64,000 bases of DNA from Ignavibacteriales bacterium. GTDB taxonomy: Bacteria; Bacteroidota; Ignavibacteria; Ignavibacteriales; Melioribacteraceae. Positions 12,119-27,853 of this stretch are shown piece by piece. Every line of letters begins with the position of its first letter. Position 1 is the stretch's first letter. The position numbers and the translations under genes are program-made. The stretch spans positions 124,001 to 188,000 of the forward strand of contig JAPLFG010000002.1 of the NCBI GenBank assembly GCA_026390795.1. Direction: 5' to 3'. The notes under the pieces are model-generated. The model was not told where the DNA came from and made no database searches. It worked only from the letters and a program-made list of their open reading frames with translations.

Positions 12119-13468
12119 ATGAAAAAAATATTGGCACTCTCATTCATTGTTTTTCTATTCATCATGTCCGGATGTTCTGGTGTTGTTGTAAATGAAAGTA
12201 CTGGTTTTATAAATGTAAATGACACTCATTTTATTCTAAATGGTAAACCTTATTTTTTTGTTGGTACTAATTTGTGGTACGGTTGTTATCTCGGATCACC
12301 TGGTAAAACTGGAAATAGAGAGAGACTTATTAGAGAACTCAATAATTTACAATCCACCGGGATAATGAATCTGCGCGTTTGTGCAGCCTCAGAAGAATCT
12401 CTAATGGGTCGTTCGATAAAACCGGCAATACAAATATCACCAAATAATTACGATGAAGAATTACTTGAGGGCTTAGATTTTCTTCTTTTTGAAATGCATA
12501 AACGTGATATGAAAGCTGTCCTTTTCTTGAATAATTATTGGCAGTGGACCGGTGGAATGGCTCAATACAATGCGTGGTTCGGCGATGGTAAAGTGCCGGA
12601 TCCTGACGATCCGAATGTTGGATACGGAAAATTTATGGATTACTCGGCCGAATTTTATCTAAATGACAAAGCCAAAGAATGTTTCAGAAATTATTTAAGA
12701 ATGATAATTACAAGAGTGAATAAATTTAATGGTATTGCTTATAGAGATAATCCGACTATAATGGCATGGCAGCTAGCTAATGAACCAAGGCCGGGAAGAG
12801 ATTTATCAATAATAAAATCTGCCGAGATTTATTATAAATGGATTGATGAAACTGCTCAGTATATTCATTCACTTGACCCTAATCATCTTGTAACAACCGG
12901 AAATGAAGGTCTTGCAGGAAGCTTACAATCCGAAGAAATATTTTTGAAATCACACGAGAGTAAATATATTGATTATGCTACGATGCATATTTGGCCTAAG
13001 AACTGGGGATGGTTTGATGCTTCTAATATTGATGAGACTTATCCAAGTACAGAAAAAAATGCTATCGAATATATAAACAAGCATCTTAAGTATGCGCGTC
13101 AATTAAACAAACCAATAACAATGGAAGAATTTGGAATTCCAAGAGACTATGAAGCAAGTAAGCCCGGTACTCCAACAACAGCTCGCGATAAATATTATAA
13201 AAATGTTTTTGCAGTTATTTATGATAGCGCTGCTGCCGGAGCTCCAATTGCCGGAACTAATTTTTGGGGATGGGGAGGAGTTGGACGAGGTAGGAATTTA
13301 GATGATAAATGGCGAGAAGGCGATCCATATACAGGTGATCCGCCACAAGAGTCGCAAGGACTTAATTCAATTTACGATACTGATCTTTCAACGTTAGAAA
13401 TTATTTCAACGCATGCTGCACAAATGGAAAAATTAAGAAATAAAATCCAGATGGCGAAGATCCAATAA
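12119..13468 (+). CDS. GH5_7 beta-mannanase, lipoprotein
   Basis: Endo-beta-1,4-mannanase anchored as a lipoprotein. From the ATG at 12119 the N-terminus reads as a lipoprotein signal with lipobox IMSGC (Cys19), then a mature (beta/alpha)8 enzyme. GH5_7 landmarks are NLRVCAASEE, WQLANEPRPG with acid/base E222, and MEEFGIPRD with nucleophile E337, then GTNFWGWGGVGR near the C-terminus. Length (449 residues) fits a single-domain mannanase. The longer frame from TTG 12068 would put 17 extra residues before the signal and is rejected. It follows the T9SS-tailed GH5 by 68 bases and probably shares its transcript. Outer-membrane surface location is likely but not shown by sequence. Confidence 0.9.
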   Translation: MKKILALSFIVFLFIMSGCSGVVVNESTGFINVNDTHFILNGKPYFFVGTNLWYGCYLGSPGKTGNRERLIRELNNLQSTGIMNLRVCAASEESLMGRSIKPAIQISPNNYDEELLEGLDFLLFEMHKRDMKAVLFLNNYWQWTGGMAQYNAWFGDGKVPDPDDPNVGYGKFMDYSAEFYLNDKAKECFRNYLRMIITRVNKFNGIAYRDNPTIMAWQLANEPRPGRDLSIIKSAEIYYKWIDETAQYIHSLDPNHLVTTGNEGLAGSLQSEEIFLKSHESKYIDYATMHIWPKNWGWFDASNIDETYPSTEKNAIEYINKHLKYARQLNKPITMEEFGIPRDYEASKPGTPTTARDKYYKNVFAVIYDSAAAGAPIAGTNFWGWGGVGRGRNLDDKWREGDPYTGDPPQESQGLNSIYDTDLSTLEIISTHAAQMEKLRNKIQMAKIQ

Positions 13469-13579
13469 GTTTAATAATTGCTGAATAAGAATAAATCGCA
13501 TAGAAGTTTTTATTAGTCATTCCCATTTTAAATCATGAATATATTTAATCCTAATCTTAATCATTCCCAGGTGATTATA

Positions 13580-14218
13580 ATGGAAAGAATAATATTTTCT
13601 GTATTACTATGTCTTTTCTTATCGAGTGTTTTGCTCGCCGGATCAGAAGAAAGCAAATCATTTTCCCAGTTGGAAATTAAAGACGGATGGCGCTTTCGTC
13701 AATCCAATGATAACAATTGGTATCCGGCGACAATCCCGGGATGCATTCATACCGATTTGATAGATAATAAGTTAATTGAGGATCCATATTTTGGATTGAA
13801 TGAACAAAAACTTCAGTGGATTGGGGAAAAAGATTGGACTTATCAAACTACTTTTGATGTTCAGCAAGAAATCTTGAAAAGAAAAAATATTGAACTCGTC
13901 TTTAAAGGATTGGATACTTATGCGGAAGTTTATCTGAACAAAACTAAAATTCTTTCAGCTAATAACATGTTCAGAGAATGGAAAGTCGATTGAAAAAATC
14001 AATTGAAAGAAAAGAACAATGAACTGGAAATCCATTTTAAAAATGTATTTGATGAAAACCTTCCTAAATGGAAAAATGCACCGTTCCGGCTTCAGGCATT
14101 TCCTAATAACGACCAATCGGATACCATGCTTGCCGTGTATTCACGTAAAGCGCAATTTCATTACGGCTGGGACTGGGGAACTCGTTTAATTACATGCGGA
14201 ATATGGCGACCAGGTTAG
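13580..14218 (+). pseudogene. Broken GH2 beta-mannosidase (stop codon and 3' loss)
   Basis: N-terminal part of an exported GH2 beta-mannosidase: signal peptide, then the sugar-binding domain with IPGCIHTDLI, the Trp-rich EKDWTYQTTF, KGLDTYAEVYLN and NMFREWKVD, and after it the GWDWGTRLITCGIWRP hallmark of beta-mannosidases. The frame is interrupted by an in-frame TGA at 13991-13993 and continues in the same frame (KNQLKEKNNELEIHF). It ends just after IWRP at about 14212, where DNA from another gene (a GH44 remnant on the opposite strand) begins and supplies a TAG. An intact enzyme has about 800-860 residues, so the catalytic barrel is missing. ATG 13580 is chosen because the signal peptide follows directly. 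Confidence 0.9.
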
Positions 14219-14466
14219 ATAATTATCGCTTGAATGCTGCCAATCATCCCGGCATTTGATACATTATTTTCCCAATTGTATCCGGTCATTCTATTACCGC
14301 CTTGCTGTACTGCAGTATAATTATAATCAGAATTCAAAATTTGATTCGTACCATATATGTAAGGACTGATTGGCTGTGATTGCCCTTTTAATTTGATAGA
14401 AAAATTTACTCTTTGAGCAAACATGTAAGTAGTCAGCAAAAAGAAAATGAGAATTATAGTTCTCAA
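14219..14466 (-). pseudogene. Remnant of GH44 endoglucanase/xyloglucanase (N-terminus)
   Basis: On the minus strand, from the ATG at 14464-14466: a signal peptide, then ISPYIYGTNQ and the GH44 hallmark QGGNRMTGYNWENN.SNAG. After SNAG the frame is off by one: reading one base earlier gives DDWQHSSDNYL, the continuation expected in GH44, so one base (a G in the run GGG complementary to CCC 14248-14250) appears lost. Similarity then stops at about 14218, where the antisense of the GH2 remnant begins. GH44 proteins have 500 or more residues. It lies 22 bases after the GH31 gene and was probably the last gene of that minus-strand operon. Confidence 0.82.
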
Positions 14467-14488
14467 TTATATTTTATTCATCCTTTTC

Positions 14489-16870
14489 CTAAAAATTAAT
14501 TTTTATTTTTTTACCTTTATACTTTACCGTCTTATCTACTCCGGTACTCGAGTCTATACCAATCCCATGGTCTTCTTTTACGAGTACGATATTGAATATC
14601 CGTTCTTGTACCATTCCAGGATAGCCTCCTTTTCGGTTGCCAATTGTTAATTGTTTTATTGAGTCAATCCATTTAATAGGAATGATTGAATAAATTCCTT
14701 TTTCATATTTGTAATTGTCGTTCTCGTCCTCATAAAGAATAAAATTTCCATTTGCCCCGGGATAGATTCTCAGTTCAATCGAATCAGCAGGTTTCTCAGT
14801 TGCATATTGTAAAAATGGTCCCATTGGAATAATTGAACCGGCTTTAATGTAAAGCGGGATTGTTTCAATTGGTGCAGCGGCATTAATATTCTGTCCACCA
14901 GAAAGTGTTTTCCCCGTCCAAAAATCAAACCATCCTGTTGATATTGGGAGATAGACTTTTCTTGTATTTTCAGTAGATGCCCGTTCAGTAACTGGATTTA
15001 CCAGAAATGCAGGTCCAAACATATACTGATCCGGAATATTATTTATGGCAGTATCTGTTCTAAAATCAAATGCGAGTGCACGCATTATTGTATAACCTTC
15101 ATTAGTAATTTTCCATGAAAGGGAATAAATGTATGGCATAAGACGGTAACGCAAATTATCATACTTTAATAAAATAGCTTTTGTATTTGTGTCCCAATTA
15201 TTTGAGAACAATGCTCTTTCACCTTTTCCGTGTATTCTGAATATCGGGCTGAAGGTACCAAACTGAAACCACCTTGTAAACAATTCTCTGTTGGCAGGGA
15301 TTGACCAATCAGGAGGTGTCCAATTAAAATGATATCCCCCAATATCCGATGTCCAATACGGAATGCCTGAAGCGCATGCATTGATTCCCTGCGGAACTTG
15401 GATTTTATATGCTTTGAATGTGCAAGTTATATCAGACGACCATAAAGTTGCTGCATTCCTTTGTTGTCCTGCGAACGCTTGACGAACAAGTAAGAAAGCA
15501 CGTTTACCTGGTATGTCTTTTCTCCAATGTTCATATAAACCAGTTGTATGCATCAGTGAATAAGTGTTGAAGTAATCAATACCTCTGCCGATTGCAAAAT
15601 TTGATTGTCTTCGCGCATCCAGTAATCCACCATTATCAGGTTCGCATTGATCAACCCACCATGCGTCCCAGCCGTATCGAGTTATTAAAGCATCGTTGGC
15701 TTGCCTCCAATAAATATCTCTTGCTTTGGAATCATGGGCATCATAATAACTATCTAAAGTATGAGTCATTACATTATCCCATAATATATCCGTCATGCCG
15801 CCGTTGTTTTTTAATTCATCAAAATTTATTGTTCCTTTAGCAAAGACAGGCCAGATGGAAATCATTGCGTGAATGTTTGCCTGGTGTAATTCGTCAACCA
15901 TTTCCTTTGGGTTGGGATATCTTTCCGGATATAGAATATGCGAACCGATAACATCAGGTTCCCAGTAAAACCAATCTTGAACAATGCAATCAACAGGAAT
16001 ATTATTGTTACGGTAATTGTCTTTTACGGATAATACTTCTGATTGACTCTTATATCTATCTTGCGATTGAAAAAGTCCAAAAGCCCATTTCGGAAACATC
16101 GGAGCCTGACCGGTAGCTTGGCGATAAAGTTTAATAATATGATCGAATTCAGGCCCGTAAAAAAAATAGTAATCAATCATAGTTCCGCTTTCAGATACGT
16201 ATTTATATTTAGTATTAGCTTCTTCTGCACCGTAAAAATTTGATGCTGAATAATTATCCCACATTAATCCGTAACCTTTGGTTGATAAGAGCACTGGAAT
16301 CGCTCCGGTCATATATTTAATTGCTAAATCTTGGTTGCGGCCTTTATAATTCATCGCCAAGGAATCTTCTGGATGACAGCCCAGACCAAACAGGGCTTCA
16401 TCAGCGGGAGATTGGAATTTGGTTTCGCAGTTGTATGTATTAATACCTGCAATGGTAGCGGCCGTCATCATTTTCCCGCCCGAAGTGTCTTCGGCAAGAA
16501 TAACAACATCTTTCAAATCCGTGTATGTAATTGAACCGGTTGACATGTTCACTTTTATTTTTAGCCTGCCCGTGGAAACAACAATTTCATTTGAATTTTC
16601 CTTAACAGAAAATTTTGGTTGAGTTTCCCATTTGTTATTCAATACAAGAGAAGTTCTTGAAGAGAAAACTTCTAGAGCAGTATATTTAACTTCGACAACA
16701 TCTTCTTCGCAAACTTTAATTTTCATTATCCCTTTATCTAATTTACAAGTAATCCCATCAGAATCTTTTGTGTAAGATACTACTGAGGCAACAGCAATAT
16801 GGTTCATCATTAAGAGGCTGCATATTAGAATAGCAAATATGACTTTTATGTTATTCAAAAATTTATTCAA
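14489..16870 (-). CDS. GH31 alpha-xylosidase/alpha-glucosidase family, exported
   Basis: Exported GH31 glycosidase of 793 residues. Signal peptide (about 1-30), N-terminal beta-sandwich (about 32-240), and a (beta/alpha)8 domain with DWFYWEPD, the nucleophile region WWVDQCEPD (about residue 407), LWSSDI near the acid/base Asp, and YWTSDIGGYHF; C-terminal beta domains follow. The WWxDxxEP form and the former GH44 partner point to alpha-xylosidase acting on xyloglucan pieces, but alpha-glucosidase or transglycosidase activity is not excluded. It lacks the PA14 insert of some alpha-xylosidases. The start is TTG at 16868-16870, supported by AGGAGG about 7 bases before it; no ATG is better placed. 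It overlaps the end of a GH31 fragment upstream by 4 bases. Confidence 0.85.
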   Translation of the reverse strand: MNKFLNNIKVIFAILICSLLMMNHIAVASVVSYTKDSDGITCKLDKGIMKIKVCEEDVVEVKYTALEVFSSRTSLVLNNKWETQPKFSVKENSNEIVVSTGRLKIKVNMSTGSITYTDLKDVVILAEDTSGGKMMTAATIAGINTYNCETKFQSPADEALFGLGCHPEDSLAMNYKGRNQDLAIKYMTGAIPVLLSTKGYGLMWDNYSASNFYGAEEANTKYKYVSESGTMIDYYFFYGPEFDHIIKLYRQATGQAPMFPKWAFGLFQSQDRYKSQSEVLSVKDNYRNNNIPVDCIVQDWFYWEPDVIGSHILYPERYPNPKEMVDELHQANIHAMISIWPVFAKGTINFDELKNNGGMTDILWDNVMTHTLDSYYDAHDSKARDIYWRQANDALITRYGWDAWWVDQCEPDNGGLLDARRQSNFAIGRGIDYFNTYSLMHTTGLYEHWRKDIPGKRAFLLVRQAFAGQQRNAATLWSSDITCTFKAYKIQVPQGINACASGIPYWTSDIGGYHFNWTPPDWSIPANRELFTRWFQFGTFSPIFRIHGKGERALFSNNWDTNTKAILLKYDNLRYRLMPYIYSLSWKITNEGYTIMRALAFDFRTDTAINNIPDQYMFGPAFLVNPVTERASTENTRKVYLPISTGWFDFWTGKTLSGGQNINAAAPIETIPLYIKAGSIIPMGPFLQYATEKPADSIELRIYPGANGNFILYEDENDNYKYEKGIYSIIPIKWIDSIKQLTIGNRKGGYPGMVQERIFNIVLVKEDHGIGIDSSTGVDKTVKYKGKKIKINF

Positions 16871-17139
16871 AATTGCTTCCTCCTAATTTTTATTAAAAGC
16901 TTATTCTTCTCTTTAGGAGCCTGTCTGATATCAAGAACCGACAGACTTTTTCTTGTAGAGAATGATTTATTCTTCGTTTGAGTTATTCTGACTGTAGTTG
17001 GTGAAACAACTTGAATTCTGAGTAGTGATTTTTTAAGTCCGATCTGAACTTCATTGTTCTGAGCAAGGGTGTATTTAATTGAAGATGTAAGCAGAATTAA
17101 TAAAACAAAAAGAAAAAGATATGTTAATAGTCTATCCAT
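16867..17139 (-). pseudogene. N-terminal fragment of a second GH31 gene
   Basis: Ninety codons: a signal peptide, then a strand-rich segment (LLRIQVVSPTTVRITQ, FSTRKSLSVLDIRQAP) that matches the beginning of the GH31 N-terminal beta-sandwich and is clearly similar to the same part of the intact GH31 that follows (IMKIKVCEEDVVEVKY, FSSRTSLVL). The frame then runs into KIRRKQF and stops inside the Shine-Dalgarno/start region of that gene. This is best explained as a tandem GH31 copy lost by internal deletion. The remnant keeps the promoter-proximal end, so it may now serve as a translated leader with stop-start overlap to the intact GH31. Confidence 0.7.
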
Positions 17140-17289
17140 TTAAACATATATCAAAAAATTTTAACACTAATTACATAAATCTGGTGTTAAATATTCTGCA
17201 AATATTGTACTTAATATTTAGTGCCTCTCTAAATGTTCAAAAGTTAAATTTGAGTAAAACACTCTCAATATTCATTTATTAATTTCATA

Positions 17290-17314
17290 ATCGTTTATCA
17301 ATATGATAATCGAT
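17290..17314. promoter_or_regulatory. Candidate operator/enhancer site, inverted repeat
   Basis: ATCGTTTATCA-ATA-TGATAATCGAT: 11-base arms with one mismatch and a 3-base centre, in the 300-base divergent region between the minus-strand GH31 genes and the symporter. It ends 56 bases before the sigma54-like element at 17371, an arrangement expected for a site bound by an NtrC-type activator. Confidence 0.45.
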
Positions 17315-17370
17315 AAAGTAATTATTTGAAAAGAATTCTCTCAATTAATAAAAAGAGAAGTGCTTTTTAC

Positions 17371-17385
17371 TGGCATTATTTGTGA
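17371..17385 (+). promoter_or_regulatory. Sigma54-like -24/-12 element upstream of symporter
   Basis: TGGCAT-TATTTG-TGA, matching the element at 9785 in 13 of 15 positions. The -24 half is near consensus; the -12 half has G at the right position but not the following C. The implied transcription start, around 17396, leaves a 45-base leader before ATG 17442. Confidence 0.4.
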
Positions 17386-17441
17386 CATTTCTAAGGGTTA
17401 CTTATTTCACTGGTTTATCTATAAAATTTAGAAGAGATTTT

Positions 17442-19382
17442 ATGCAATTACGTTTAATTGATATCTTAATTATTGTCCTCTTCATATTAATTAATATTCT
17501 AATCGGTTTCTTAATTTCAAAAAGAGCTTCTAAGAATATTAAAAACTACTTTCTTGGTGGTAATACCTTACCCTGGTGGTTGCTAGGTATTTCCAATGCT
17601 TCCGGAATGTTTGACATAGCCGGAACAATGTTATTAGTGTATTGGCTTGCTGTTTATGGTATGAAAAGTATGTGGCTGCCTTGGTTATGGCCTGTTTTCA
17701 ATCAAGTTTTCTTAATGGTTTATCTATCAGCCTGGCTGAGAAGATCAAATGTAATGACCGGTGCAGAGTGGATAAAAACACGTTTTGGAACAGGAAAAGG
17801 TGCTAATCTTTCCCATATTGTGGTTGTAGCTTTTGCTCTGATAGGTGTTATTGGATTTCTTTCATATGGATTTAAGGGGATAGGAAAATTTGCTACAGCT
17901 TTTCTTCCGCCTCTTGTTACAAATCCCGAGACGCTTTTAAACTATCCACAAATTAATGCTAATCTTTATGCCCTAATTCTGATGGGAATAACTACCATTT
18001 ATGTAGTAAAGGGTGGAATGTTTAGCGTAGTAATCACAGAAGTAATCCAATACGCAATTCTAACTCTATCTTCAATCGCAATCGGAATTATAGCAATTTA
18101 CCATGTCTCGCCTGAAATGATTAATTCAGTTTTACCCGCAGGGTGGAAAAATATTTTTTTTGGTTGGGATCTAAACCTTGACTGGTCGACTGTAAATGCT
18201 GCTACATCAACAAAAGTAAGAGCATTTGGCGATTGGATCAAAACGGATGGGTATTCTATGTTCGGTTTATTTTTTGGTATGGTACTATTTAAAGGAATAT
18301 TTGTTGCTGCTGCCGGACCGGCTCCTAATTATGATATGCAAAGGGTTCTTTCAACCCGCAATTCCAAAGAAGCCGCAAAAATGAGTTCTCTTGTTAGTGT
18401 TGTTCTTAATCCCGCACGTTACTTCATGATTGCCGGTTTAACAGTTCTTGCATTAACAAATTTCGATGAACTTTATAAAAGCTCAATTACATCTCCCGAT
18501 TTTGAAACAATATTGCCTGAAGTGATGGCTAAGTATATTCCAGTTGGATTACTTGGATTCTTAATGGCGGGACTTCTTGCCGCATTCATGAGCAATTTTG
18601 CTGCAACAGTAAACGCTGCGCCTGCTTATATAGTAAATGATATTTATAAAAGATTCATTAATCCAAATGATGAACCGAAGAAATATGTTACTATGAGTTA
18701 CATCAGCTCAATTGCTATTGTTGTTATTGGAGTAGCAGTGGGATTTGTGGTCGAGTCTATAAATAACGTTGTTCTCTGGATTACCGGTGCATTGTGGGGC
18801 GGGTATACTGCTTCCAATGTACTTAAATGGTATTGGTGGAGGTTTAATGGTCACGGTTATTTCTGGGGAATGGTATTCGGGATTGCATCTTCACTTTTAA
18901 TTCCACTACTAGATAGTTTGCATCTGATTAATTTCTTAAGAGATTGGCCATTAGCAAGTAATCTCGGTATGAATTCTTTCCCAGTAATTTTATTGATCTC
19001 AATTATTGGCAGTTTGATTGCTACGTTCTTAACGCCTCCGGAAAACGATGAAACACTTATCAATTTTTATAAACATGTTCGACCATGGGGATTCTGGAAA
19101 CCAATCCAGGAAAAAGTATTGAAACAAAATCCGAACTTTGTTCCTAACAAAGATTTCAAAAGAGATATGGTTAATGTTTTGGTCGGAATTGTATGGCAAA
19201 TTACATTGATGTCTTTTCCTGTATACTTAGTCTTGCGGGAATTTACTCCATTATGGATAACGCTCGGTATTATGGTTGTTACTTCGGTATTTCTAAAATT
19301 CAATTGGTGGGATAAACTTGAAACAGCTTTCGGTGAGAAAGATGAAAATGGTGTAACGATTACTGACGTTAATAATTCATGA
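17442..19382 (+). CDS. Sodium:solute symporter (SSS family), likely sugar
   Basis: Inner-membrane Na+-coupled transporter of the SLC5/SSS family, about 646 residues with 13-14 hydrophobic helices. It begins MQLRLIDILIIVLFILINI, typical of the first helix, followed by FLGGNTLPWW and SNASGMFDIAGTM; a long middle stretch (GPAPNYDMQRVLSTRN) and the helix LAAFMSNFAATVNAAPAYIVNDIYKRF are characteristic family features. ATG 17442 is chosen over the GTG at 17382, which overlaps the putative -12 element and lacks a ribosome site. Its stop overlaps the start of the GH130 gene (ATGA), so the two are translationally coupled. That coupling makes mannosylglucose, or a similar beta-disaccharide, the likely cargo; the substrate itself is inference. 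Confidence 0.88.
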   Translation: MQLRLIDILIIVLFILINILIGFLISKRASKNIKNYFLGGNTLPWWLLGISNASGMFDIAGTMLLVYWLAVYGMKSMWLPWLWPVFNQVFLMVYLSAWLRRSNVMTGAEWIKTRFGTGKGANLSHIVVVAFALIGVIGFLSYGFKGIGKFATAFLPPLVTNPETLLNYPQINANLYALILMGITTIYVVKGGMFSVVITEVIQYAILTLSSIAIGIIAIYHVSPEMINSVLPAGWKNIFFGWDLNLDWSTVNAATSTKVRAFGDWIKTDGYSMFGLFFGMVLFKGIFVAAAGPAPNYDMQRVLSTRNSKEAAKMSSLVSVVLNPARYFMIAGLTVLALTNFDELYKSSITSPDFETILPEVMAKYIPVGLLGFLMAGLLAAFMSNFAATVNAAPAYIVNDIYKRFINPNDEPKKYVTMSYISSIAIVVIGVAVGFVVESINNVVLWITGALWGGYTASNVLKWYWWRFNGHGYFWGMVFGIASSLLIPLLDSLHLINFLRDWPLASNLGMNSFPVILLISIIGSLIATFLTPPENDETLINFYKHVRPWGFWKPIQEKVLKQNPNFVPNKDFKRDMVNVLVGIVWQITLMSFPVYLVLREFTPLWITLGIMVVTSVFLKFNWWDKLETAFGEKDENGVTITDVNNS

Positions 19383-20596
19383 AATTATTGGAGTTAAAGA
19401 AGATGAATGAAAAACAATTCAATGAAAAATTAAATCAATTGTTGCTTGAGCACGAAAAATTAATCAAAAGGAAAAATATAAAAATTGAAAAAAGTAATGG
19501 TGTATATAACCGTTACAAATATCCTATACTTACTTCAGAACATACACCTCTTTTTTGGCGTTATGATTTGAATTATATAAGTAATCCTTATCTAATGGAA
19601 AGGCAAGGAATCAATTGTACTTTCAATTCAGGGGCAATGATTTTTAAAGGCAAGATAGTTTTAGCTGTGAGAGTTGAGGGAGTTGACAGAAAGTCTTTCT
19701 TTGCTATTGCCGAATCTCTAAACGGAATTGATAATTTCAAATTCTGGGATTATCCTGTTAAAATGCCCCAAACAGAAAGACCGGATTCAAACGTGTACGA
19801 TATGCGTCTTGTGGAACATGAAGACGGATGGATTTATGGATTATTCTGTACTGAACGACACGATGACAGCAGACCTGACGATACTTCTGCGGCAGTTGCT
19901 TCATGCGGAATTGCACGAACGAAAGATCTTGTGGAATGGGAAAGATTACCTGATCTAATCTCATATACAGGTCAGCAGAGAAACGTTGTTCTTCATCAGG
20001 AATTTATAAATGGAAAATATGGATTGTACACAAGACCCCAGGATGGATTCATTGAAACTGGAAGCGGCGGCGGAATTGGATGGGGATTAACAGATAGCAT
20101 GGAACACCCGGAAGTAAAAAAAGAAATAATTATCGATCGTAAGGTTTATCATACAATTTACGAAGTTAAAAATGGATTGGGTCCAGCCCCCATCAAAACA
20201 GAAAAAGGATGGTTGCATTTAGCTCACGGAGTTAGAAATACAGCAGCAGGATTGAGATATGTTTTATATCTGATGCTCGCAGACCAGCAATACCCAATGA
20301 ATATTATACATAAGCCGGCCGGATATTTTATTGCGCCCGAAGGTGATGAAAGGGTAGGCGATGTATCCAATGTTACTTTCAGCAATGGATGGGTTAAAAA
20401 ACCTAACGGTGAAGTTTTAATTTATTATGCATCTTCCGATACAAGAATGCACGTTGCCGTTTCTACCATAGATAAACTTCTTGATTACGTAACTAATACA
20501 CCTGAAGATAGATTTATAAGCTCTGAATGTGTTAAGACAAGAAATGAATTGATTGAAAAAAATCTGACAATTCTGAATAAACATAAAAAGAAATGA
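19379..20596 (+). CDS. GH130 mannosylglucose phosphorylase
   Basis: Cytosolic five-bladed beta-propeller phosphorylase. The 405-residue protein resembles GH130 subfamily 1, 4-O-beta-D-mannosyl-D-glucose phosphorylase, which forms mannose 1-phosphate and glucose. Visible motifs are an N-terminal helical extension, FNSGAMIFKGKIVLAVRVEG, NVYDMRL with the catalytic Asp at about 141, FCTERHDDSRPD, TGQQRNVVLH, and HGVRNTAAGLRY. No signal peptide. It starts at ATG 19379 overlapping the symporter stop by 4 bases; a second ATG at 19403 has GGAG before it and could be used. Together with the epimerase at 26477 and the mannanases it completes the known mannan-catabolic route (mannobiose to mannosylglucose to mannose 1-phosphate). 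A GH130_2 role on oligosaccharides is a less likely alternative. Confidence 0.88.
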   Translation: MKLLELKKMNEKQFNEKLNQLLLEHEKLIKRKNIKIEKSNGVYNRYKYPILTSEHTPLFWRYDLNYISNPYLMERQGINCTFNSGAMIFKGKIVLAVRVEGVDRKSFFAIAESLNGIDNFKFWDYPVKMPQTERPDSNVYDMRLVEHEDGWIYGLFCTERHDDSRPDDTSAAVASCGIARTKDLVEWERLPDLISYTGQQRNVVLHQEFINGKYGLYTRPQDGFIETGSGGGIGWGLTDSMEHPEVKKEIIIDRKVYHTIYEVKNGLGPAPIKTEKGWLHLAHGVRNTAAGLRYVLYLMLADQQYPMNIIHKPAGYFIAPEGDERVGDVSNVTFSNGWVKKPNGEVLIYYASSDTRMHVAVSTIDKLLDYVTNTPEDRFISSECVKTRNELIEKNLTILNKHKKK

Positions 20597-20622
20597 TATT
20601 TCCTTAATGGTGCCTCCATTAG

Positions 20623-20658
20623 ATGCCGTGCATCTTGTTATTTATGCCAGCACGGCAT
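20623..20658 (+). terminator. Rho-independent terminator after SSS-GH130
   Basis: Perfect 9-base stem ATGCCGTGC / GCACGGCAT with an 18-base loop, followed by TATTATTTTAG; 27 bases after the GH130 stop. Confidence 0.7.
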
Positions 20659-20843
20659 TATTATTTTAGTCTATTATTCTCTATGATTTATTGTCCGAAG
20701 TCAAAAAATAGTAATTGAAAAATTTTTATCGTTCATATTGATTCAGATAATAAACCTTGATTAATAATTATGAAACATGTTCCCGAAGTTCACTCATTTA
20801 TAATTTATTTATAGTAATGAACAGTCTTTGAGCGAGGTAATTC

Positions 20844-23330
20844 ATGTCTAGTAAATTCTGCTATCCACTAGTCCTTCTTTTCTTAATCATTTTTTGTTCA
20901 ATTTCATTCAGTCAACCGAAACGTATGAATTCGAGCTTACATATAAATGAGAACGGTTATTACGAAATGCCGGGACTCAATGTAATGTTGTTTGATGATT
21001 TTTATCCCGAAGGCCATCAAGGTGGATTAACAATTATTCAACATGGAATACGTGTAGCGGCCAATGGTGATATACGTTTAGAACCTACTCCCGGGCAATG
21101 GGCTCCGGTTCCGAAAGTCGGTCAAAGAAAAATTGACAGGCAAAATGAAGTTATTGAAGTCAGTTTATGGTACCCGGATTCCAGCAAAGACAGAAAAGGG
21201 TTTAATCCAATTAATTACCCCGATCTAAAAATTAAATACACAATTAAAACTTTGGTTGAAGGAAATAATATTAAAGTAATTGTAGATCTTGAAAAACCTT
21301 TGCCGGCTAATTGGGCAAACAAAGTCGGATTTAATTTGGAATTATTCCCCGGTCACTATTTTGGAGAACATTTTTTGATGGATGATGAATCTGGAATATT
21401 CCCTCGGCAAGCAAATGGACCGATGATGAAAGATGCTGATGGAAATTTACAAATAGTACCAATGGCTGTTGGAAAAGAGTTAGTGGTATCACCAGGTGTT
21501 GAAGGAAGAGAAATAATATTTATAAGTAATAAAAGCGATCTTCAGTTAATTGACGGAAGAGGTTTGCATAACAATGGGTGGTTTGTGCTGCGTTCAACAA
21601 TTCCTCAAGGTGTTGATAAAAATGCGGTCGAATGGATAATCTCTCCAAAAGTAAATCCAGATTGGAGATATAAACCGGTAATTCAAGTATCACAGATTGG
21701 TTATCATCCTAAGCAAATAAAATTTGCTGTTATTGAACTTGATAAATTGACAGAAGAATTCGAACCGGTTCAGCTTATCAAAATAAACGAGAACTCCCAG
21801 AAGGTAATAAAAGAAGATCTTCATCCAATTGCATGGGGAAGTTTTTTACGATACAAATATTTGCGTTTCGATTTCACTAATGTAACAGAACAAGGAATTT
21901 ATAAATTAAAATACGGCAATGTTGAATCGAATGAATTTGAAATCAAAAAAAATATTTTTGCAAGAAATGTATGGCAGCCAACATTGGAATATTTTCTTCC
22001 CGTACAAATGTGCCATATGAAAATTAAAGATAGATATAAAACATGGCACGGACTGTGTCATATGGATGATGCTTTGATGGCTCCGATTAATCATAATCAT
22101 TTTGACGGTTATTTTCAGAAAGGTTCTACATTAACTAAATATCAATCCGGAGAACACGTACCCGGATTAAACATAGGCGGATGGCATGATGCTGGTGATT
22201 ACGATCTTAGAATCGAATCTCAAGCAGAAACTGTTTATCGTCTTTCCCAAGCTTATGAATATTTTAAAAATGATTATGATGAAACCTATATTGATGAAAA
22301 TTCCAGATTAGTCAAGATTCATAATCCGGATGGCAAACCAGATCTCTTACAACAGATTGAACACGGTGTTTTAAGTATAGTAGGAGCTTATGAATCAATG
22401 GGAAGATTATATAGAGGAATTCAAGAATCATCACTCGAACAATATGTTCACCTTGGAGATGCTTCAACAATTACCGATAATCTTGTTTATAATAAAAATG
22501 AAAAAGATCCTATATTGAAACAATCCTTGCCTCAAGACGACCGTTTAGTATTCACTGAAGAAAATCCTAGTAGAGAACTGGAAGTTGCACAAGTTTTGGC
22601 AGCAGCTAATAGAGTATTAAAAAATTTCAATCCCGAACTTGCAGAAAAATGTTTGGACATTTCTGAAGAACTTTATAAAAATAATAGTTCGATTAAAATA
22701 AGAGATAAGATTAATACTGTTGCAGAACTTTATCTCACTACATCAGGTAGGGAATATGAAAAGATACTCAAAGAAAATTTGGACATCATTTGTAATAACG
22801 TTGAACAATACAGTGAAGTACTTGGAAGAGTTGTAAGAAAAATAAATGATAAAAATTTTACTGATAGGGTAGAAATTGCTGTTAAGAATGCTTTCGATAA
22901 GATAACAGAACAACAAAAAGAAAATCCTTATGGTGTTCCATATAAACCATATATATGGGGAGCGGGATGGGGAATTCAATCGTTCGGTGTTAAGAATTTA
23001 TTTTTATATCTGGGATTTCCAGAAATATTTTCTTCAGAATATCTCTTTAGTGCAATGAACTTTATACTTGGATGTCATCCCGGTGAAAATACTGCTTCAT
23101 TCGCTTCCGGTGTAGGAGTTAATTCATTAATTATTGCTTATGGAACGAACAGAGATGAATGGAGTTACATTCCCGGCGGTGTAGGAAGCGGAACAGCATT
23201 AATTCGTCCGGACTTTCCGGAATTAAAAGTCTGGCCCTATTTCTGGCAGCAAACTGAATATGTAATGGGCGGCGGTGCAACGGATTTTATGATATTGGCA
23301 ATGGCTGCAGATTCCTTATTTAACAAATAA
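20844..23330 (+). CDS. Exported GH9 family protein with novel N-terminal domain
   Basis: Signal peptide (about 1-24, ending SISFSQ), an N-terminal domain of roughly 240 residues that I do not recognise (all-beta in appearance), a CelD_N Ig-like domain (about 275-375; VSQIGYHPKQIKFAVIE), and a GH9 (alpha/alpha)6 domain with WHDAGD at 447-452. The C-terminus differs from classical GH9 endoglucanases: the usual NE..INWNAPLV is replaced by WQQTEYVMGGGATDFM, where E805 is the probable proton donor. This variant is shared with GH9 exo-acting enzymes such as beta-glucosidase/glucosaminidase-like members, so terminal sugar removal is plausible. At 828 residues it has no T9SS tail, so it likely stays periplasmic. 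The start has GCGAGG 9 bases upstream. It opens a run of exported genes reaching 29006. Confidence 0.83.
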   Translation: MSSKFCYPLVLLFLIIFCSISFSQPKRMNSSLHINENGYYEMPGLNVMLFDDFYPEGHQGGLTIIQHGIRVAANGDIRLEPTPGQWAPVPKVGQRKIDRQNEVIEVSLWYPDSSKDRKGFNPINYPDLKIKYTIKTLVEGNNIKVIVDLEKPLPANWANKVGFNLELFPGHYFGEHFLMDDESGIFPRQANGPMMKDADGNLQIVPMAVGKELVVSPGVEGREIIFISNKSDLQLIDGRGLHNNGWFVLRSTIPQGVDKNAVEWIISPKVNPDWRYKPVIQVSQIGYHPKQIKFAVIELDKLTEEFEPVQLIKINENSQKVIKEDLHPIAWGSFLRYKYLRFDFTNVTEQGIYKLKYGNVESNEFEIKKNIFARNVWQPTLEYFLPVQMCHMKIKDRYKTWHGLCHMDDALMAPINHNHFDGYFQKGSTLTKYQSGEHVPGLNIGGWHDAGDYDLRIESQAETVYRLSQAYEYFKNDYDETYIDENSRLVKIHNPDGKPDLLQQIEHGVLSIVGAYESMGRLYRGIQESSLEQYVHLGDASTITDNLVYNKNEKDPILKQSLPQDDRLVFTEENPSRELEVAQVLAAANRVLKNFNPELAEKCLDISEELYKNNSSIKIRDKINTVAELYLTTSGREYEKILKENLDIICNNVEQYSEVLGRVVRKINDKNFTDRVEIAVKNAFDKITEQQKENPYGVPYKPYIWGAGWGIQSFGVKNLFLYLGFPEIFSSEYLFSAMNFILGCHPGENTASFASGVGVNSLIIAYGTNRDEWSYIPGGVGSGTALIRPDFPELKVWPYFWQQTEYVMGGGATDFMILAMAADSLFNK

Positions 23331-23339
23331 AATCAAATT

Positions 23340-23361
23340 AATGATTTTTTTAATAATCATT
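23340..23361 (+). terminator. Weak hairpin after GH9 gene
   Basis: AATGATT / AATCATT, 7-base stem with an all A/T 8-base loop, 9 bases after the stop; no strong U-tract, so termination may be partial. Confidence 0.3.
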
Positions 23362-23427
23362 GACTCATAAAAAATACAAGTTACTGTATAGTAGTTTTAA
23401 TGATGATCTATTGGCGGAGGTATGTGT

Positions 23428-24335
23428 ATGTGCAATAATAAATTCAATGGAACAAATATTCTTGAAATACTTGGTTCAAACTTATTGAAAGCATCAAAAA
23501 TTTTTTCTGTTGCTTCGTTGTTTTGGTTTGCTTCGATGAACACTTATAGCCAGATTCCCAACAAAGAAACTACTCGTTGCATATTAAGCGCATCAATAGG
23601 GGAGATAACTTCCAAGATCACTAATAAAGAATATGAACTGATTATTAATTTACCTTATAGTTATTATAAAGATACACTAAAAACTTATCCAGTAATTTAT
23701 TTCTGTGATGGTTTCTATGATTTCCCGCTATACGCGATGATTTATAGCGATCAATTCTATGATAAGATAATCAATGAATGCTTCCTTGTCGGTTTTTCGT
23801 ATAAAGGGAAAAATCTGGATTACGAAAAATTAAGAGCTCATGATTACACGCCAACCGATGTTACTAAAGTCGGTGAATCGGGTGGAGCTCTAGATTTTTT
23901 AAGCGTTATTGAAAATGAGTTTATTCCTTTCATGGAGAAAAATTATAGAGTCAATCCAAAATTTAGAGCATTAAGCGGATGCTCTTTAGGAGGGCTTTTT
24001 ACATTGTTTGCAATGTTCGCACGTCCTGAACTCTTCAATGCATATATCGCTATAAGCCCTGCAGTATTTTGGATAATAATTGGCTTTTCAAATTTGAGGA
24101 ACAATTTCATTCCGCCAATACAGATTTACCGGTTTCTTTATATATGACTGTTGGTGAAAAAGAATTTTTAATTAACGGTGTAAAACTTTTTAATGAAACA
24201 CTGCAAATTCATAAGTATGAAAAATTTAGATATCAATTTCGAATTCTTGAAAATACCTACCACGCAGGGTCAAAACCGGAAGGTTATACTCGCGGTATGC
24301 AATTTATTTTTGAACCGCTGCAAAAAAAACAATAA
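23428..24335 (+). pseudogene. Frameshifted exported esterase (Fes/EstD-like alpha/beta hydrolase)
   Basis: Two frames together make one esterase. The first (to 24147) holds the signal peptide, PVIYFCDGFYDF, the nucleophile elbow GCSLGG and IAISPAVFW; the second, starting within 24069, continues DNNWLFKFEEQF, VSLYMTVGEKE and ENTYHAGSKPEGY with the catalytic His. Restoring one G in the GG at 24071-24072 gives FWDNNW and joins them exactly. In this family such enzymes remove feruloyl or acetyl groups or hydrolyse siderophores; the wall-degradation context favours an ester-decorated polysaccharide. The break is either a real recent mutation or a base-calling error, since nothing else in the gene is damaged. 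Start: GGAGG at 23417 gives best spacing to ATG 23428; ATG 23422 is possible. Confidence 0.85.
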
Positions 24336-24366
24336 TGTTTAATTGTTAGCAAAAAAAAATATACTA

Positions 24367-25596
24367 ATGAATAAGAGCCTCAACACTTTTCAGAGAACAC
24401 TAATATTTCTCATGATTATTTTGTTAGTCGAAAATACTTCCGCTCAATTTCTCGATCAATTTAATAGTGAACGATTAGATTATGATAGAAAAGGTATTAA
24501 CGGTTGGACGTTTTTTACCGGTGATGGAAATGCTATTATGGATTTCCAACAGCATAACGGTTATGCTTCAATTATGGTTGATGCTACAAAAGATAGCTGT
24601 GGAATTTGGTGGGCACTGATTAAACACTGTGTTTCGGCCAATATGGACTTGCATTTATTAAATAAACCAAATTATGAGTTGCGTGTTGAAGGGAAAATTC
24701 GTGTAAGTGACGCACCTAAACGAGTTAATCTTCATCTTAATACTCAACGAACTACAGATTTTCACTCTCACCTTATGGAGTTTGATATTCCGGATACAAC
24801 TAATTGGCACACGATCAGTATGACCACAAAAAATTTTAATGCTGTGCCCGGTGATACTGTTTTTGGGCAACTCGCTCTAATGGATTGGGGGCTTGAAAAA
24901 TATCGTGTGGATATTGACTACTTCAAAGTTGATATCGTGAATGTAAATGCTATCGGACCTGACCAAGGTTGTCAAGTGCCGTATCATCCTTCGATACCGG
25001 ATCTGCAATCATTTGCACAACATACTCCTGTATCACAAGATGCAATCGTAGATATTGAATATCCTGATATGAATTTTAATAATTGGTATGCGAAAAATGA
25101 AAATGTCGAACTGCTCTCAGTCGGCGGTACTCAACTAATTATTATGAGGTGGGATCTGAAAGAGTTTATTGGAAAGAAAGTTAATGGTTCCGGATTATTG
25201 GAATTAACTACATACTCTTTGCAACGTTCGCCTGATTATAAAAAAGATTTCGGAATGGTGCGTATTTCGGAGATATTTGGTGGAAATCAAAACTGGGATC
25301 AAACCGAAGTTACATATAATAATTTTTGTCAACGAGTGAAAATGAACAGAGTAATAAATTCACAAATGATTATTGATGTTGATGTAAATGAAAACCGTAA
25401 TGGTAAAAATCTGATTACTATTTCAAAGCCGGTACTTCAACGTATGATTGACGGCAATACATTTGGCTTGGCTCTCAGACCTCTTGGTGCAATAAATGCT
25501 TCTTTTTATGCAATGGAATATCAAAAAGGAAAATATTGCGCAAAACTACATTTCAATTTAGAATCGAATCCTTCAGATAAAAATATAAATAATTAG
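24367..25596 (+). CDS. Secreted carbohydrate-binding-like protein
   Basis: Exported protein of about 409 residues with no recognised catalytic motif. After a signal peptide (LIFLMIILLVENTSAQ) there is a jelly-roll domain (about 25-195; NGWTFFTGDGNAIMDF, HLNTQRTTDFHSHLMEFD), the shape of a carbohydrate-binding module, and a second beta-domain (about 200-400; MRWDLKEFIGKKVNGSGLLEL, WDQTEVTYNNF) that resembles the DNRLRE/CBM96 type fold. It is set between the esterase and the RraA-like gene with spacing of a few tens of bases, so it is part of the same transcript. A substrate-binding role is inference. ATG 24367 is preferred to TTG 24343 because the signal peptide follows it; no strong ribosome site is seen. 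Confidence 0.75.
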   Translation: MNKSLNTFQRTLIFLMIILLVENTSAQFLDQFNSERLDYDRKGINGWTFFTGDGNAIMDFQQHNGYASIMVDATKDSCGIWWALIKHCVSANMDLHLLNKPNYELRVEGKIRVSDAPKRVNLHLNTQRTTDFHSHLMEFDIPDTTNWHTISMTTKNFNAVPGDTVFGQLALMDWGLEKYRVDIDYFKVDIVNVNAIGPDQGCQVPYHPSIPDLQSFAQHTPVSQDAIVDIEYPDMNFNNWYAKNENVELLSVGGTQLIIMRWDLKEFIGKKVNGSGLLELTTYSLQRSPDYKKDFGMVRISEIFGGNQNWDQTEVTYNNFCQRVKMNRVINSQMIIDVDVNENRNGKNLITISKPVLQRMIDGNTFGLALRPLGAINASFYAMEYQKGKYCAKLHFNLESNPSDKNINN

Positions 25597-25623
25597 TAAG
25601 TCTATTTCATAAGGAGCACTGCT

Positions 25624-26457
25624 ATGAAAAATCCAATTAAGCTTGTCTTATGCATTTTAATTTGTTTATCTGCTAATATAAAACCGCAAGAAAAAACTAC
25701 CACCGATATAATGAAAGGAATAAATTTTATAGAAACAACAGTTTACTCTGATGTAGAAAATCCAACTATATTAAAATTATTTGAAGGATTACGTGTCGCC
25801 GATGTTTCCGACGGAATGGATATGGTAGGATTGCCTGGTACCGGATTAGTAGATCCGGCAATTCATGCAGATTGGATCGATCAAAAGAATTTGTCTCATC
25901 AATTCAGAGGAATTGCAATCACTGCAAGATATGTTCCTACACAAAAACCGGATCGGCCTAAACCGGGAGAAAAATTTCAAGACTGGGAAGGTAATTTTTA
26001 TAACTCTTATTCTCATGAAGCTTATGCGAAAATAATCAAACCAGGTTCTGTAGTAGTAATAGATGATGTTGAAGATAAAGACATAGGGTCTATCGGTTCT
26101 TATAACATTTTATATTGGAAAAGTCTTGGTGCGGTTGGTGTGGTTACAGATGCTAGTTCAAGAGATACGGATGAAATAGCTATTGAAGGAGTACCTTTAT
26201 ATTTACGGAAAAAAGGAAGAGGAATTCGGCCGGGTCGAAATGAATTGGAATCAGTTAACCGGCCAGTTGTAATCGGTGGAGTTTTGGTTTGTCCTGGCGA
26301 TGTTGTTGTAGCCGATGCAGATGGGGTGATTGTTGTCCCACGAGTTAATGCAGAACAAGTTGCTAAATATGCTCGTGAGATTTTAACTAAAGATAAATCA
26401 GCAAGACAACAATTATATAAAGATCTAAAATTGCCTTTGGATAATACAGTTAAATAA
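25624..26457 (+). CDS. RraA-family protein with signal peptide
   Basis: RraA-fold protein (the HMG/CHA aldolase and RNase E inhibitor family). Conserved pieces are RVADVSDGMD, the central IDDVEDKDIGSIGSYNI, VVTDASSRDTDEI and the final GDVVVADADGVIVVP motif. It is 277 residues, about 50-100 longer than cytosolic RraA, and begins with a signal peptide (MKNPIKLVLCILICLSANIKPQ), so it should act outside the cytosol, where neither RNase E nor the usual oxo-acid aldolase substrates are expected. It starts at ATG with AAGGAG 9 bases before it and lies 27 bases after the binding protein and 19 before the epimerase. Its role beside an exported epimerase is unknown; aldolase or decarboxylase activity on a sugar acid is one guess. 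Confidence 0.82.
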   Translation: MKNPIKLVLCILICLSANIKPQEKTTTDIMKGINFIETTVYSDVENPTILKLFEGLRVADVSDGMDMVGLPGTGLVDPAIHADWIDQKNLSHQFRGIAITARYVPTQKPDRPKPGEKFQDWEGNFYNSYSHEAYAKIIKPGSVVVIDDVEDKDIGSIGSYNILYWKSLGAVGVVTDASSRDTDEIAIEGVPLYLRKKGRGIRPGRNELESVNRPVVIGGVLVCPGDVVVADADGVIVVPRVNAEQVAKYAREILTKDKSARQQLYKDLKLPLDNTVK

Positions 26458-26476
26458 AAACGTTCATGAGATTGAA

Positions 26477-27853
26477 ATGAATATTAAAAGTCTCGTTATT
26501 CTAATTTCAATTTTGTTTGTGATGTTGTTTGTATTCAGCACAAAAGAAATCAACAATGGAAATCAATATAATTGGAAGAAATTAGAGTTTGACAATGGCA
26601 TTCTCTTAAAAGAAATGAAAAATTTACTTAACCAAGATTTTGAATTGTGGTATCCTTTATCAATAGATACAATTTACGGAGGATTTTATAGCGATATAAA
26701 CTATAAATGGCAGCTGCAAGGTAGACAGGATAAAATGATTGTGACTCAAGCCCGTCATGTCTGGACTGTTTCAACTGTTACTCTCTTTAATAAAGACAGC
26801 ATAAAATTATTTCAAGTTGCTTCTCATGGTCTTAAGTTTCTTAGAAATGTTATGTGGGATAAAGAGCATGGAGGATTCTATAATTTAGTTAATCAAAGAG
26901 GGGAGCCATATAAAGAAAACGGGCAAATTATAAAACAAGTTTATGGAAATGCTTTTGCTGTTTACGGATTAGCCGCATACTTCAAAGCAACAAAAGATAC
27001 AGCAGCATTAAAATTAGCTATAGAAGTTTTTAACTGGATTGATAAGCATAGCTTTGATCCTAATTACGGCGGCTATTTTCAATTCTTATCTGAAGAGGGA
27101 ATGCCATTTTACGAAGGATATCGAGGCACTCCTCCGAAAGATCAGAACAGTTCAATTCATCTCCTGGAATGTTTTACTGAACTATATGGTGTGTGGCCTA
27201 ATAAATTATTAGGAGATCGCTTGAGTTCACTGCTTCATCTAATTAGAGATAGAATGGTTACGAAAAAAGGGTACCTTCAATTATTTTTCAAACGGGATTT
27301 AACTCCGGTTTCATACAGAGACTCAAGTTCATCAGATAGACAAAAAAATTATGAGTTCGATCATGTTTCATTCGGGCATGATATTGAAACTGCTTATTTG
27401 CTGCTAGAAGCTTCGAACACATTGGGAATTCAAAATGACACCACAACATTAAGGATTGCTAAAAAAATGGTAGACCATTCTTTTATAAACGGATGGGATA
27501 AAAAATTTGGAGGACTTTATGATGGCGGTTACTATTTCGCCGGGCAAAAAGAGATATCCATTATAAAGGAAACAAAGGAATGGTGGGCACAAGCCGAAGC
27601 TCTTAATTCTTTTTTAATGATGTCCGAGCTATTTCCTAATGATCCATTAAATTATTTTGAAAAATTCTGTCTTCAGTGGGATTACATAAAGAAATATCTT
27701 ATTGATAATGAATACGGAGGCTGGTATTGGGGTGGAATTGATAAAGTCCCCGATAATAAATTTTATCCCAAAGGAACAATTTGGAAAGGTAATTATCACA
27801 CTTCAAGAGCATTGATTAATTGTATAAACAGATTGAGTAAAAAAGTAAAATAG
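26477..27853 (+). CDS. Exported cellobiose/mannobiose 2-epimerase-like protein (AGE family)
   Basis: (Alpha/alpha)6-barrel epimerase of the N-acylglucosamine 2-epimerase superfamily, closest in appearance to cellobiose 2-epimerase: QARHVW (H94), GNAFAVYGLAAY, FGHDIETAYLL (H301), EWWAQAEALN and WKGNYHTSRALIN (H441). H301 and H441 are spaced like the general acid/base His pair of characterised cellobiose epimerases. These enzymes turn beta-1,4-mannobiose into mannosylglucose, the substrate of the GH130 phosphorylase at 19379. Unusually, it starts with a hydrophobic segment (VILISILFVMLFVF), so it appears exported or membrane-anchored, while the known enzymes are cytosolic. No clear cleavage site or lipobox is seen. 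Its 458 residues exceed the usual 390-410 by the length of this N-terminus and some loops. Confidence 0.85.
   Translation: MNIKSLVILISILFVMLFVFSTKEINNGNQYNWKKLEFDNGILLKEMKNLLNQDFELWYPLSIDTIYGGFYSDINYKWQLQGRQDKMIVTQARHVWTVSTVTLFNKDSIKLFQVASHGLKFLRNVMWDKEHGGFYNLVNQRGEPYKENGQIIKQVYGNAFAVYGLAAYFKATKDTAALKLAIEVFNWIDKHSFDPNYGGYFQFLSEEGMPFYEGYRGTPPKDQNSSIHLLECFTELYGVWPNKLLGDRLSSLLHLIRDRMVTKKGYLQLFFKRDLTPVSYRDSSSSDRQKNYEFDHVSFGHDIETAYLLLEASNTLGIQNDTTTLRIAKKMVDHSFINGWDKKFGGLYDGGYYFAGQKEISIIKETKEWWAQAEALNSFLMMSELFPNDPLNYFEKFCLQWDYIKKYLIDNEYGGWYWGGIDKVPDNKFYPKGTIWKGNYHTSRALINCINRLSKKVK

Follow-up and report, generated by a model that had tools for sequence, protein, structure and literature searches.

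A 64,000-nucleotide stretch of DNA from Ignavibacteriales bacterium (GenBank assembly GCA_026390795.1, contig JAPLFG010000002.1, positions 124,001 to 188,000; genome size 4.08 Mb), hereafter the window, encodes a mannan pathway with a mannosylglucose phosphorylase (MGP) of family GH130 and, 5.9 kb from the MGP gene, an AGE-family epimerase that appears, together with its clade, to be exported. An earlier note on this DNA had concluded that epimerisation precedes uptake, so that mannosylglucose rather than mannobiose is imported, in a rearranged pathway. The explanation that we favour, with somewhat better than even confidence, is that a conventional mannan route is joined by an exported epimerase resembling cellobiose 2-epimerases (CE), which would act as an extra pre-uptake step for partner hydrolases; the usual route is probably supplemented by a step outside the cytosol rather than rearranged.

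Under this explanation the genes would form two neighbouring groups (Table 1). The first (about 9.8-20.6 kb) would combine a secreted GH5 mannanase and a lipoprotein exo-mannosidase with a sodium:solute symporter (SSS) and a cytosolic MGP, its mannobiose 2-epimerase step being supplied by a signal-less paralog from a subclade that we call B; the second (about 20.8-29 kb), predicted to be mostly exported, would comprise GH9, DNRLRE-type and RraA-like proteins, the epimerase and a further GH5 protein. The exported CE-like epimerase—membrane-tethered or periplasmic—would act before uptake on beta-1,4-linked (gluco)manno- or cello-oligosaccharides, interconverting mannose and glucose at their reducing ends, a step that in relatives appears to be fused to GH26, GH9 or CE2 domains. 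We infer its substrate, direction, exact location and benefit; the signal-like N-terminus, catalytic residues, two paralogs, fusions, neighbourhoods and tree on which we draw are read from sequence.

Senoura et al. reportedly described in 2011 a mannan pathway with a cellobiose (mannobiose) 2-epimerase and MGP. Loci combining a symporter, MGP and an epimerase are already presented in passages of PMC4285296 and PMC5217682, and papers that locate the C2-epimerisation of mannobiose place it, in the parts concerned, in the cytoplasm: S. copri EpiA, which converted mannobiose, cellobiose and mannosylglucose, is predicted to be cytoplasmic together with GH130 (a section of PMC12704710), and the PUL219 model puts the epimerase step after cytoplasmic digestion (an excerpt of PMC6643232). 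The window's mannan genes with MGP are, as the earlier note had recognised, of this known type, with SSS, MGP and mannanase together, an AGE epimerase in the genome and a GH130 without signal; the difference is that the nearby epimerase is exported and the signal-less one lies 33 kb from MGP.

An exported epimerase clade would place the editing of sugars beyond the inner membrane and could change which disaccharide is imported. It would also offer a candidate substrate for a solved GH26 (6q75) of unsettled substrate and make natural secreted epimerase-mannanase proteins available for producing epimerised oligosaccharides. Secreted or periplasmic alginate C5-epimerases are likewise carbohydrate epimerases outside the cytosol; they act on the polymer at C5 of uronates and have a different fold. 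An open-access literature search found no exported AGE-family 2-epimerase and no GH26, GH9 or CE2 fusion to one; most subscription papers lay outside its scope, so this negative is weak evidence of novelty.

Predicted export signal and family of the epimerase

The N-terminus of the epimerase, MNIK-SLVILISILFVMLFVFS, scores 3.38 under an export rule that considers 11 residues free of charge, their mean hydropathy and the net positive charge ahead of them; the export call rests on this hydropathy and charge rule together with homologues. As controls, none of 32 CE-side proteins (30 CE, two Runella-like) passed, 47 MGPs reached 1.27 at most and 34 of 39 GH9 proteins scored at least 1.98. Both localisation observations of the earlier note—an export signal on the epimerase and none on GH130—thus hold.

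Loci and their epimerases are cited below by L number and genomes by G number. The genome scan covered the best 80 of 431 relatives, found via two peptide patterns, which biases the sample behind the frequencies; an AGE match was the reason for fetching most loci. Residue counts refer to 98 tree rows of the long clade (defined below) outside B, and export and neighbour counts to 100 unique proteins outside B (the exported type), 31 of B and 32 on the CE side; proteins shorter than 300 aa were excluded from exported-type counts of MGP and neighbour distances, GH26A and the export rule.

The rule is passed by 90 of the 100 exported-type proteins. Three of the ten failures (L143, L152, L168) were accepted by eye, their tree labels being switched from no-signal to signal, which brings the signal-like total to 93; the others are cut by contig ends (L137, L199, L201), have an uncertain start (L134) or showed no signal (L045, L072, L073). 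In a further Flavobacteriaceae sample all 22 epimerases looked signal-like by eye, L228 being the weakest, and a single B protein of 31 passed the rule (L144, which the tree groups with the exported type). In view of signal-bearing homologues we reject a misread start or a chance hydrophobic stretch. Neither a lipobox nor a clear cleavage site was seen in the N-terminus of the window epimerase, which makes tethering to the membrane and cleavage equally likely; its AlphaFold model (pLDDT 93.3) has a helix at residues 3-21, followed by a low-confidence linker (pLDDT <50 at residues 23-32). Epimerases of relatives, including those fused to GH26, carry typical cleavable or lipoprotein-like signals.

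The 26477 product (458 aa) belongs to the AGE family: PF07221 matches it with 130.6 bits against a gathering score of 23.4, the fold agrees and the catalytic Arg and His are kept. Its best solved matches by sequence are CE (161 bits), and the structural alignment to these enzymes proposed in the earlier note fits the model best to Rhodothermus marinus CE (RmCE; 3wkf, 9l8i) with mannobiose (Z 54.5, 391 residues), the Runella slithyformis glucose 2-epimerase Runsl_4512 (8h1k, 8h1l) reaching Z 50.2. Residues R93, H228, H301, H441, W370 and W436, whose catalytic roles we take to be those of the aligned residues in RmCE, are present in all 98 long-clade rows outside B, for which reason we reject the idea of a degenerate copy. 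The window enzyme differs from RmCE in sequence (about 28% identity), in a segment 15 residues longer, in its export signal and in lying across a branch of support 99. That branch comes from a quick tree with SH-aLRT supports only and long-branch warnings; on one side are 31 CE-side rows, two of them Runella-like, and on the other the long clade with the window protein, whose nearest named relative in the tree is L100, from an Ignavibacteria metagenome-assembled genome (69% identity).

At N224, W96 and W369 the CE state is found in 97 of 98 long-clade rows each, the window protein included, as against D, Y and F in the two Runella-like rows (L095, L098) from which that alternative state is defined; 8h1k also has D at the N224 column. 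The segment F271-G300 measures 30 residues in 94 of 98 exported-type and all 28 B rows, 15 in all 29 CE rows and 38 in both Runella-like rows, and on sequence grounds its 30-residue form is a marker of the clade.

Separately, a C-terminal tail of ~85 residues occurs in epimerases L144, L148, L157, L160, L163, L165 and L176; Pfam gave no match for it in L144 and L165, the two searched.

The signal-less paralog and the phosphorylase

A second AGE gene in the same genome (467 aa, without signal; G000:C2:109446-110849, equal to L007:9446-10849) lies 13 kb ahead of the window and keeps eight active-site positions: R93, N224, H228, H301, E304, W370, W436 and H441. The genome thus has a signal-less epimerase, and neither epimerase gene stands next to the MGP gene in an operon (5.9 kb and 33 kb away). 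The paralog belongs to B (28 tree rows, support 100, none with a signal), which is nested in the long clade among signal-bearing lineages (support 96 for a 68-row group); if the signal-bearing state is ancestral there, a polarity taken from parsimony, B would have lost its signal.

The GH130 protein is an MGP by sequence, with predicted activity, matching B. fragilis MGP (BfMGP, 3was) at 577 bits and 5ay9 at 499. MGP lies within 6 kb of 23 of 32 CE-side epimerases (21 on the same strand, within 300 bp) and of 11 of 31 B epimerases (nine on the opposite strand, within 175 bp). For the exported type the figure is four of 100—the window, L136, L059 and L208—with a CE directly beside MGP in the last two, and the exported type itself adjoins MGP in one of 100. 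Every SSS-bearing locus other than the window in the compared neighbourhoods (18 of 18) has MGP, 14 with CE and four with B; relatives of the symporter thus operate alongside a cytosolic epimerase.

Among 245 genomes of the class, MGP (present at E ≤ 1e-80) was found in 32, B in 26, CE in five and the exported type in 24. B or CE accompanies MGP in 29 of the 32, and eight of these 29 have no exported type. Exported type and MGP co-occur in 23 of the 24 exported-type genomes (p = 5e-24, relatedness uncorrected), 21 of which also have B or CE; the two exceptions are G494, where a contig ends inside MGP, and G014, whose exported-type protein has no detectable signal and in which a remoter AGE protein of 393 aa emerged under a more sensitive search. 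The third MGP genome lacking B and CE, G078, has no AGE match. One genome among the 32, G410, combines B with CE, its assignment to B resting on a 128-aa fragment and a 20-bit difference; without it B counts 25 genomes, and CE keeps G410 among the 29 of 32. Outside the class, seven of 15 exported-type genomes have MGP and all seven also have CE. The idea that the exported enzyme is a dedicated MGP partner is weakened by these neighbourhood and class-genome counts.

In two genomes of the same family as the window's (G188 and G393), MGP, SSS, exo-mannosidase and B stand apart from RraA, DNRLRE, GH9, GH5 and the exported epimerase; in the window the same two gene groups lie side by side.

Partner hydrolases and competing explanations

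GH26 is fused C-terminal to the epimerase in eight proteins (L039, L099, L101, L108, L119, L121, L143 and L201, the last partial, its start cut by a contig end), GH9 is fused N-terminally in one (L062) and a CE2-type esterase occurs in another (L059); such natural fusions suggest an oligosaccharide substrate. The GH26 of L039 matches Muricauda GH26A (6q75) at 400 bits, the next structure at 142, and the stand-alone GH26 of L151 (Gillisia) matches it at 527. This GH26A type is fused to the epimerase or within 6 kb in 17 of 100 exported-type, none of 31 B and two of 32 CE-side cases (p = 0.01). The co-occurrence of epimerase and GH26A, set down as an idea before the search, was followed in 299 genomes of one family (which we infer to be Flavobacteriaceae): a long-clade epimerase was found in 23, GH26A in 10 and both in eight, that is, in eight of 10 GH26A genomes versus 15 of 289 others (p = 1.4e-8, or 1.5e-7 minus the query genome, with relatedness uncorrected and both queries drawn from one locus where they are neighbours). 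GH26A, GH9 and the epimerase stand together in five of 22 fetched epimerase loci (L223-L227), as in Gillisia L151; G577 and G746 have a GH26 elsewhere in the genome, the match in G577 being weaker (247 bits).

Muricauda GH26A, likened here to the enzymes fused to or beside exported epimerases, is described in sections of PMC9860051 as stand-alone, probably periplasmic, perhaps reducing-end-specific and inactive on the manno-oligosaccharides tested, the authors proposing shorter manno-gluco oligosaccharides as its substrate; an epimerase of that polysaccharide utilisation locus is mentioned in those sections, none being described there as exported. A tentative further reading, which we hold possible, is that the exported enzymes epimerise and clip: the epimerase, widespread in Bacteroidota, would turn the reducing-end mannose of manno-oligosaccharides into glucose, and a hydrolase with a blocked +2 subsite (Muricauda GH26A type, fused or adjacent) would remove it, so that outside the cytosol the chain would be eaten starting at its reducing end. 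GH9 may do likewise, and B would be a secondary return to the cytosol, where it would have taken over the role of CE beside MGP. A substrate ending in epimerised glucose would explain the inactivity of Muricauda GH26A on the manno-oligosaccharides tested.

Several observations weigh against a CE-like, pre-uptake role for hydrolase partners. To our knowledge, no member of the long clade has been assayed. Profile scores for CE and the Runella enzyme are almost the same (220.7 vs 218.7 bits), the NCBIfam equivalog for CE (EpiA), NF041848, scores 171.5 bits against a cut-off of 800, and the F271-G300 segment lies between CE and Runella-like lengths. G668 and G784 have GH26A without the epimerase, contrary to a universal GH26A role; in the window's own genome (G000) the sole GH26 match is weak (48 bits) and on another contig, away from the epimerase, and was rejected as a partner. 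Muricauda GH26A abolished the beta-mannan antibody signal in microalgal bloom extracts, with no epimerase mentioned in that part of PMC9860051. In 12 of the 22 fetched Flavobacteriaceae loci (L231-L242) a lipoprotein-like epimerase of the same clade has a remote SSS in its vicinity (131-144 bits against that of the window), and some exported members elsewhere stand beside RraA-like, RR-signal enolase-family and SBF genes, a hint of other substrates. At E ≤ 1e-80, MGP is missing from eight of the 15 exported-type genomes outside the class; as eight MGP genomes with B or CE in turn lack the exported type, MGP does not need the exported epimerase, nor is the epimerase bound to MGP. No correction for relatedness was applied to the counts, several of which depend on fragments at contig ends (G361, G410, G531).

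Some of these points bear on a rather unlikely alternative, in which the exported group is unrelated to mannan and its substrate is cellobiose (with GH9) or, together with the RraA-like protein, sugar acids or other sugars. An RraA-like gene lies within 66 bp of the exported epimerase at 10 of 100 loci and GH9 homologues within 6 kb at 28 (DNRLRE-type homologues are near at five); RraA-like and enolase-family neighbours have signal-like N-termini, MGP is absent from the eight exported-type genomes outside the class, and the remote SSS of L231-L242, joined in L241 by TauE and HGSNAT-like proteins near the epimerase (L231 and L234 showed comparable N-termini), hints at another, perhaps amino, sugar. 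This alternative has to contend with GH26 fusions in eight proteins, the CE2-type esterase in one and MGP in 23 of 24 exported-type class genomes.

An unlikely alternative makes the exported enzyme a 2-epimerase of monosaccharides (mannose/glucose), working on mannose freed by the exo-mannosidase. The intermediate segment, 15 residues longer than that of CE, leaves room for a monosaccharide substrate, as do profile scores to the Runella glucose 2-epimerase that nearly equal those to CE. The Runella enzyme is also similar in fold; its two relatives in the tree lack the CE states at N224, W96 and W369, kept in 97 of 98 long-clade rows, and have the longer segment. Moreover, B replaces CE in MGP genomes, the two occurring together in at most one of 32, and fusion to a mannanase domain fits an oligosaccharide substrate better.

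The import of mannosylglucose instead of mannobiose through the SSS for MGP, as claimed in the earlier note, now seems improbable. An exported epimerase, a cytosolic MGP and a symporter do share one window, and at L136 a lipoprotein-like epimerase sits between an SSS, truncated where the contig starts, and MGP, all three sharing a strand and separated by 11 and 16 bases; the single other AGE protein found in that genome is remote (395 aa, 64 bits) and without signal. What makes the claim unlikely is the signal-less paralog, which renders mannosylglucose import unnecessary in the window's genome, and the frequency of B or CE, which often lie beside MGP as the exported type rarely does (adjacent in one of 100): B or CE is found in 29 of 32 MGP genomes of the class and in 21 of 23 with exported type and MGP, and outside the class CE is found in seven of seven such genomes. 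Of the earlier note's reasoning, then, an epimerase that looks exported stands and the rearranged pathway does not. Mannosylglucose import may occur in some lineage, as the L136 locus suggests, and in the window's genome import of both disaccharides is possible. Finally, it is very improbable that the N-terminal helix comes from a wrongly chosen start or anchors the enzyme on the cytosolic side, the missing cleavage site and lipobox notwithstanding, given homologues with typical cleavable or lipoprotein-like signals, GH26 fusions among them, and a lysine ahead of the hydrophobic stretch, which predicts a C-terminus outside.

Gene layout of the window

Table 1. Genes and features discussed, with positions in the window and the basis of each assignment.
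Feature	Position	Strand	Basis
GH5-type endo-beta-mannanase, secreted; Big_7, CBM35 and type IX secretion system (T9SS) C-terminal domain	9841..12051	+	Pfam; 2c0h (mannan endo-1,4-beta-mannosidase) 155 bits
GH5 exo-mannosidase-like (CmMan5A type), lipoprotein-like signal	12119..13468	+	1uuq 434 bits; N-terminus read
N-terminal remnant of a broken GH2 beta-mannosidase-like gene	13535..13993	+	Three-frame translation
GH31 protein, signal-like N-terminus	14489..16870	-	Pfam; N-terminus read
SSS sodium:solute symporter	17382..19382	+	Pfam
GH130 MGP (by sequence), without signal	19379..20596	+	3was 577 bits, 5ay9 499 bits
GH9-type protein (CelD_N and GH9), signal-like N-terminus	20844..23330	+	Pfam
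Esterase gene, 3' part apparently frameshifted	23422..24147	+	Pfam Esterase; translation
DNRLRE-type protein	24343..25596	+	NCBIfam, under cut-off (23.5 vs 34 bits)
RraA-like protein, signal-like N-terminus, 20 bp ahead of the epimerase	25624..26457	+	Pfam
Apparently exported CE-like 2-epimerase, AGE family (main finding)	26477..27853	+	Pfam, NCBIfam, fold, residues
Putative export signal or signal anchor, epimerase residues 1-22	26477..26542	+	Export rule; AlphaFold model
GH5 cellulase-family protein, RR-containing (Tat-like) N-terminus	27903..29006	+	Pfam; N-terminus read

The earlier note had counted a mannanase within the piece from 12119 onwards; the GH5 there is of exo-mannosidase type, and the endo-mannanase is the preceding gene. 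The open reading frame (ORF) of the exo-type GH5 is listed from 12068, with 12119 the likely start, and its closest match, CmMan5A, is an exo-mannosidase. The overlap of SSS and GH130 by four bases, also noted before, exists in that the two ORFs share ATGA; it depends on the start chosen, since an ATG at 19403 after GGAG is equally plausible, and residue 13 of the longer ORF is the first to align with BfMGP.

Beside the mannan genes, the frame of the remnant that we take, from its sequence by eye, to be GH2-like runs on for ~75 residues past an in-frame stop and is then truncated (13535-14230). The esterase gene has a likely continuation in a different reading frame (23422-24340), for which real decay and assembly error are both possible. 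Directly after the exported group lies a gene (29147-32791) whose 1214-aa product matches an alpha-amylase domain weakly (31.5 bits) and has long unassigned parts.

The loci at which an RraA-like gene adjoins the epimerase are the window, L041, L044, L099, L103, L105, L119, L133, L143 and L188. Most of these RraA-like proteins are signal-like at the N-terminus, which is odd for an aldolase-like family outside the cytosol. At L053, L055, L060, L064 and L065 the epimerase is accompanied by signal-like RraA-like proteins and RR-containing (Tat-like) proteins of the enolase/mandelate-racemase family, and at L053, L055 and L065 also by an SBF-type transporter (neighbours were labelled via Pfam in L053 and by clustering in the other four); judged by gene content, these loci possibly encode a periplasmic sugar-acid module.

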